Positions 796 to 945 of a DNA stretch of 10,668 nucleotides are shown in pieces. The position numbers and the translations under genes are program-made. The notes under the pieces are model-generated. The model had not been told where the DNA came from. It searched no databases and worked only from the letters and a program-made list of their open reading frames with translations. Position 1 is the stretch's first letter, and every line of letters begins with the position of its first letter. The stretch is taken from assembly GCA_001797815.1 (NCBI GenBank), contig MGQK01000011.1, forward strand, positions 26,434 to 37,101, written 5' to 3'. The DNA comes from Deltaproteobacteria bacterium RBG_13_61_14 (GTDB lineage: Bacteria > RBG-13-61-14).

Positions 796-945
796 TATTG
801 AGGATCGCATAATAAGTTGACGGCCAGCGGCTTGGCTCCTGGGGATGCAGAATTGTGGTGCAGGCTTCCAGCCTGCGGAATGATCGGAGGGCAAGCTGGA
901 AGCTTGCACCACAAAAATAGTCAACCTATTTTGCGATCCTCAATA
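796..945. repeat. Nested inverted-repeat element, about 150 bp (MITE-like or structured RNA)
   Basis: The outer arms, 796-821 and 920-945, match as reverse complements at 24 of 26 positions. Inside them a second pair, 853-876 and 891-914, matches at 22 of 24. Each inner arm is itself palindromic: GCAGGC..GCCTGC on the left (five-base loop) and GCAAGCT..AGCTTGC on the right (three-base loop). The left spacer (822-852) has a small GCCA/TGGC hairpin. The element sits between two converging genes, with no open reading frame worth calling and no clear target-site duplication. It could be a non-autonomous mobile element, a dispersed palindromic repeat, or a folded RNA acting as a two-way transcription barrier. 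The repeat structure is directly visible; the role is not known. Confidence 0.85.

Follow-up and report, generated by a model that had tools for sequence, protein, structure and literature searches.

The 150-base double palindrome at positions 796–945 of the window, by which we mean the whole 10,668-nucleotide stretch of DNA from Deltaproteobacteria bacterium RBG_13_61_14 analysed here, is best explained as two non-autonomous mobile elements, one nested in the other: a small gene-less mobile element (MITE) on the outside, with a REP dimer in its middle. We put the probability of this reading at about 83%. The outer arms belong to a dispersed TIR family with a common TA border, the inner palindrome has a separate distribution as a REP dimer, and the same outer backbone carries different cores in different copies. 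Two of the possibilities raised in the original prediction, made from the sequence alone, were a non-autonomous mobile element and a dispersed palindrome family; both proved correct, the first for the outer arms and the second for the inner palindrome. Nested double palindromes are thereby accounted for as stacked mobile elements, not designed RNA folds.

The repeat search recovered the geometry that had been described, with two concentric arm pairs, an outer one of 26 nt (24/26 matches) and an inner one of 24 nt (853–876 and 891–914; 22/24 matches), each 92% complementary, and with each inner arm itself palindromic (Table 1). As also described, the site lies between converging genes, one ORF on the + strand that stops at 747 and one resembling DMP19 on the − strand, at 1507–971. 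The long ORF that overlaps it (637–924, − strand) is an open frame only, and the element has no coding capacity. It is thus short (below about 300 bp) and noncoding, with TIRs common to dispersed copies, as a MITE should be.

Table 1. Coordinates of the composite element and its parts in the window
Feature	Position	Strand	Remarks
MITE-like composite element	796–945	none	150 bp including TA at each end; from TIR family and copy alignment
Left TIR	796–821	+	TATTGAGGATCGCATAATAAGTTGAC; TA target at 796–797
Right TIR	920–945	−	reads TATTGAGGATCGCAAAATAGGTTGAC on the − strand; TA at 944–945
Flanking pyrimidine of Y(TA)R target	795		partner purine at 946; Y before TA in 20/20 ends
MITE backbone spacer	822–852		its GGCTTGGCTCCTGG resembles the backbone of the C36 and C60 copies; direct sequence comparison
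GTGG-tagged REP dimer nested in MITE	853–914		tags outward; similar dimers in G000 (outside this TIR family) and in G002
Left REP half-hairpin	860–876		GCAGGCT-TCC-AGCCTGC; from covariation
Right REP half-hairpin	891–907		GCAAGCT-GGA-AGCTTGC; compensated pair 894/904; from covariation
Short spacer, REP dimer to TIR	915–919		

A dispersed TIR family at TA targets

The window's own genome (G000) is a MAG of 4.74 Mb in 132 contigs, 95% complete, and two further genomes of the same order (G001 and G002) served for comparison. When G000 was searched with 796–945, the full length matched only at the site itself, and the outer 26 nt matched on many other contigs. The TIR consensus TATTGAKGATCGCRNAATNRRTTGAC, at up to three mismatches, gave 16 matches in G000 versus none for the reversed control, and none in G001 or G002. 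Although copy counts vary with the pattern thresholds, about eight copies have both ends and span 71–179 bp: the window copy (150 bp), C68 (155), C70 (179), C81 (157), C36 and C60 (151 each) and two on C35 (86 and, truncated, 71). One-ended remnants lie on C7, C99, C107 and C116; the last, an eroded copy, is the only one in G000 that might be an "empty" MITE without a REP. In wider searches, the TIR pattern was not found among viral contigs, plasmids and phages, and across 85,000 genomes it had four matches, all in unrelated organisms, which by a rough estimate is about the number expected by chance.

Recognised ends carry TA, with TA at both ends in nearly all copies and Y/R outside it; in every one of the 20 recognised ends a pyrimidine stands just outside the TA, and we therefore take the target to be Y(TA)R. 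The two borders of the window's TIR family have TA alone in common and show no direct repeat of 3–4 bp. Since no longer duplication is seen, duplication of a TA target is the simplest reading of these ends, although the TA may instead belong to the TIR.

These features suggest how the MITE might move. With ends of 26 bp (TA plus a 24-bp TIR), it would insert at Y(TA)R, and its presumed mover, acting in trans, is a TA-specific transposase of the DDE class and IS630/Tc1-mariner type, which the assembly lacks; judged by TIRs and TA borders, such an enzyme is the most likely candidate. IS630 targets CTAG, which is like the Y(TA)R seen here. The likeness to IS630 serves as a working model of the mode of movement only, as no IS630 element was found in the same genome whose TIRs could mark this one as a RUP-like derivative: PF13358, the IS630-type transposase family, has no match in G000. 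An autonomous partner with TATTGAKGATCGC ends around a transposase was not found in G000, where the TIR match lists hold no kilobase-spaced pair; the MAG may lack one, and for bacterial MITEs the autonomous relative is often unknown. The solo TIR on C7 was considered as part of an autonomous element and rejected, as the downstream gene product, with its translation judged by eye, is no transposase.

It is quite possible that the mover instead belongs to another class, for example a Y1 enzyme bound to TIRs (TIRYT) or an IS5-like enzyme, whose duplications are short and T-A-rich. Besides the missing PF13358 protein, other composite families in G000 and G002 seem to carry TNA or YTAR duplications, G000 has 19 matching places for Y1_Tnp, and there are known cases of RAYTs with long TIRs at their flanks (PMC3733652). 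Two findings speak against such a class: the borders of the window's family have nothing beyond TA in common, and no copy of this TIR with fewer than nine mismatches lies within 1.5 kb of any of the 19 Y1 loci.

REP palindromes as varying cores

GTAG-type REPs consist of a tag followed by a hairpin and form outward dimers, with GTGG a known variant of the tag (PMC3733652). The inner palindrome, which we call REP-a, is classed with them because its GTGG tag (here GTGGT), perfect hairpin (GCAGGCT-TCC-AGCCTGC) and outward dimer fit this description. Its distribution is separate from that of the TIR: the dimer matches G000 loci without this TIR (C53, C56, C40 and C63) and many places in G002, and the similarity stops at TTGTGGT/ACCACAA. 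There are about ten places in G000 at up to three mismatches, and 17 matches in G002, which is low for a REP family. G002 has an unrelated TIR element, about 110 bp long and with ends close to GGTAGTGTCCCGCAAATAAGT, whose constant core is the REP-a dimer. On C408 and C254 of the same genome (L062 and L063), a REP-a dimer also lies inside another inverted repeat, GGGCCTGTTGCCCAAAT.

Copies of the window's MITE have their ends and parts of the backbone in common and enclose GC-rich palindromes of at least three kinds: the REP-a dimer in the window copy, a GTAGGGGCGGCTCGCGAGCCGCCCCTAC core in six copies (C68, C70, C81, C99 and twice on C35) and a CCCTCACCC...GAGGG core in two (C36 and C60). A fourth core, of the GTAGGGGCGACC type, occurs in the C107 copy. 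The match between the window's GGCTTGGCTCCTGG and the C36/C60 backbone was read directly from the sequences; the MAFFT alignment did not place these stretches in register.

The cores are themselves dispersed in G000, where the GTAGGGGCGG palindrome (REP-b) occurs at 21 places and the CCCTCACCC repeat has 15 matches. REP-b is a perfect palindrome in which GTAG is paired, whereas the classic tag is unpaired. In a nesting test with flanks of 90–110 nt, 12 of the 21 REP-b palindromes lay inside an inverted repeat that exceeded the shuffles' 99th percentile. Assignment by eye placed 17/21 within TIR elements of at least six families: six in the window's own TIR family, five in GARACTATCTCAAAACC, two each in TGTATTGACA... 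and AGTGTAGTKTATCA, and one each in CTAAGTGCAGGG and CTAGTGTCRTGTCCC. None of the 26 copies of a control palindrome family was nested, and the difference held with each TIR family counted once (6/10 versus 0/26; a hand-computed hypergeometric sum gives about 1e-4).

The control family has a member in the window itself, at 748–774, where a 13-bp palindrome without mismatches (GGGCCACAGGTTT-G-AAACCTGTGGCCC) immediately follows the stop codon of the first ORF and lies 21 bp before the MITE. The 26 copies in G000 show paired (compensatory) differences, and this one has a terminator-like score on the − strand.

A second MITE family, with GARACTATCTCAAAAC ends, keeps a length of about 130 bp despite differing cores, namely the GTAGGGGCGG palindrome, GTAGGGGCGACCGGCCGGTCGCCCCTAC (C100) and paired GTAG-tagged hairpins (C41, C53, C76 and C81). 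Nesting is thus general in this genome, with the same few inner palindromes recurring inside different outer elements. Further TIR elements with REP cores were seen at L153 (C90) and at L150, L154 and L155 (C73, C121 and C128), among them one with a TIR of about 39 bp beginning AAATGGTARATGTAATGACTCA... and a family with AGAGCTTATCCGTAAATA ends. At C84:16781–17044 (L197–L199), part of an element of the second MITE family is duplicated in tandem, with one palindrome core joined directly to another.

In vitro, RAYTs cleave and join single-stranded REPs, but how REPs are inserted in vivo is poorly understood. Of five G000 proteins tested with NF047646, the model for REP-associated tyrosine transposases, four pass the curated cut-off. 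The RAYT genes at L096 and L097 are flanked by GTGGTGCGGGTG...CACCCGC palindromes, that is, GTGGTGCGGGTGCCC(A)CACCCGC, which have the same tag, layout and general form as REP-a and a different stem. Because these genes carry same-tag palindromes at their flanks, a RAYT system with the tag of the window's REP is present in G000. A cognate enzyme of the exact REP-a was not found among these genes; REP-a, REP-b and REP-c flank none of the 19 Y1 genes.

Three further features of the window were noticed along the way. Inside the first ORF, at 80–111, two GTTGCGGGTGCCC half-palindromes resemble those flanking the RAYT genes of L096–L098 and are perhaps a coding-region REP. A repeat at 1699–1733, CACTGTGCACTGTGCACCGTGCACTGTCCACT, has a similar motif, AACAGTGCACGGTGCACAGTG, beside the RAYT gene in L097. 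Next to it, at 1734–2210, lies a − strand gene for a nucleotidyltransferase-like protein (PF01909) that is interrupted at about 1990–1992 by an in-frame TAG, at the point where reading through would give an ...FGS-x-ARG... motif; the alternatives are a nonsense mutation, a sequencing error or recoding.

How REPs disperse is the field's standing question, and this genome offers a natural record of REP landing sites, in hairpin loops. RAYT-type enzymes act on single-stranded tagged hairpins (PMC8266576). Given the tag, the covariation in the REP hairpins described below and the presence of RAYT genes, we infer that the tip of the MITE hairpin would be exposed as a single strand, that RAYT-type enzymes would place REPs there, in mid-MITE, and that the REP-loaded MITE would then multiply, so that the composite spreads as a unit. 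The MITE would thus be a second vehicle by which REPs could spread. As copies hold at least three REP families at the middle of the MITE, REPs appear to have been acquired there several times. More tentatively, the GTAG/GTGG REPs of this lineage may act generally as interchangeable cores of many unrelated TIR elements, with RAYTs favouring MITE hairpin tips and MITE transposases spreading the REPs, such that a single-strand HUH system and a double-strand DDE system jointly maintain the composites.

A serious rival for the swapping of cores, if on balance the less likely one, is that REP palindromes of different MITEs exchange by template switching or homologous recombination, rather than through RAYT insertion. 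REP-b copies have core and flanks in common, as if amplified, and the C84 copy has REP-b joined directly to REP-c, both of which recombination would explain. It would, however, have to act through cores that have little common sequence to recombine through, and none of the copies listed combines TIRs from two different families.

The fold of the whole element

Both strands of 796–945 fold very strongly, at −84.2 and −85.2 kcal/mol versus means of −44.5 and −38.3 kcal/mol for dinucleotide shuffles (z = −9.9 and −13.1), an advantage of about 40–47 kcal/mol that none of 200 shuffles equalled. Taken together with an intergenic position between convergent genes, a frequent setting for REPs and MITEs, this could point to a single evolved structure, a cloverleaf of RNA or DNA whose entire fold is conserved and which would serve, for example, as a terminator or RNA-processing site. 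We consider this improbable, and the cloverleaf-like design originally proposed is not supported. The outer arms do not change together as a paired stem would: in other copies, left and right differ at 4–9 of 26 positions, without matching changes. The core is swapped among copies. Within 796–945 there is no terminator with a T run, and an Rfam search returned no relevant family, only sub-threshold microRNA matches caused by the hairpin.

Covariation locates the conserved structure elsewhere. We aligned 18 REP-a dimers and compared pair counts per cell with shuffles. For a fold consisting of an outer 7-bp stem and the two short hairpins, 96.3% of cells are paired and seven are double changes, a result that none of 500 shuffles reached; for the long-arm fold, 85.2% are paired, below nearly all shuffles, with no double changes. 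The conserved structure of REP-a is therefore the two short hairpins and not the long inner arms, whose pairing is peculiar to the window copy.

The mismatches within the inner arms (G863·T904 and C873·A894) had been taken as transitions that keep a G–T pair on one strand or the other, as would be expected under preservation of a fold, two sites being few. This description is literally right, and the two sites are better read as 894 pairing with 904: A894–T904 replaces a G–C pair within the right half-hairpin, so that the two apparent G–T mismatches are one event pair. The expected covariation thus exists for the two short REP hairpins, with none for the long inner arms or the outer arms. A single copy with no compensatory changes had been named as what would speak against a family of elements; further copies and compensatory changes were both found.

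Although an integron attC or other recombination site would likewise be a nested double inverted repeat of similar size, it is a very remote prospect here, as the outer ends (TATTGAGG...CCTCAATA) have TA borders rather than GTTRRRY/RYYYAAC core sites and the copies are scattered singly over many contigs, not in arrays.

Comparison with known systems

The nesting of a REP in a MITE is a kind of arrangement already known. In a limited literature survey, we found no description of many-to-many pairing between REP cores and TIR families. The REP/BIME systems with RAYT (TnpA-REP) have the same GTAG/GTGG-tagged short hairpins, outward dimers and RAYT genes with tagged palindromes (PMC8266576); the window's dimer sits instead in a TIR element, and its stem differs from the RAYT-flanking one.

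Correia/NEMIS of Neisseria and RUP of Streptococcus pneumoniae are MITEs of 107–155 bp with TA termini, the Correia TIRs being about 24 bp long (PMC2229807). They are alike in size and TA ends, but their internal parts are not described as interchangeable REPs (PMC2229807), and the TIR found here is unrelated and has no partner IS found. The Coxiella element QMITE2 is also a MITE with a GTAG-type REP, in the form of a GTAG palindrome; in the part of that account considered here, the REP is mentioned as a site targeted by IS1111 and core swapping is not reported (PMC10969869).

The closest published case is that of Anabaena variabilis, for which a brief remark describes GTAG-15 REP dimers inside long palindromes beginning TATAGGA, with no such outer palindromes found without a REP (Di Nocera 2013, PMC3733652). 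As in the window, a longer inverted repeat with TA at both of its ends encloses the dimers. The sequences are unrelated, however, and whereas in Anabaena a single REP family occupies a single palindrome, the several REP families found here are distributed over six TIR families or more, with different cores occurring within one TIR family as well.
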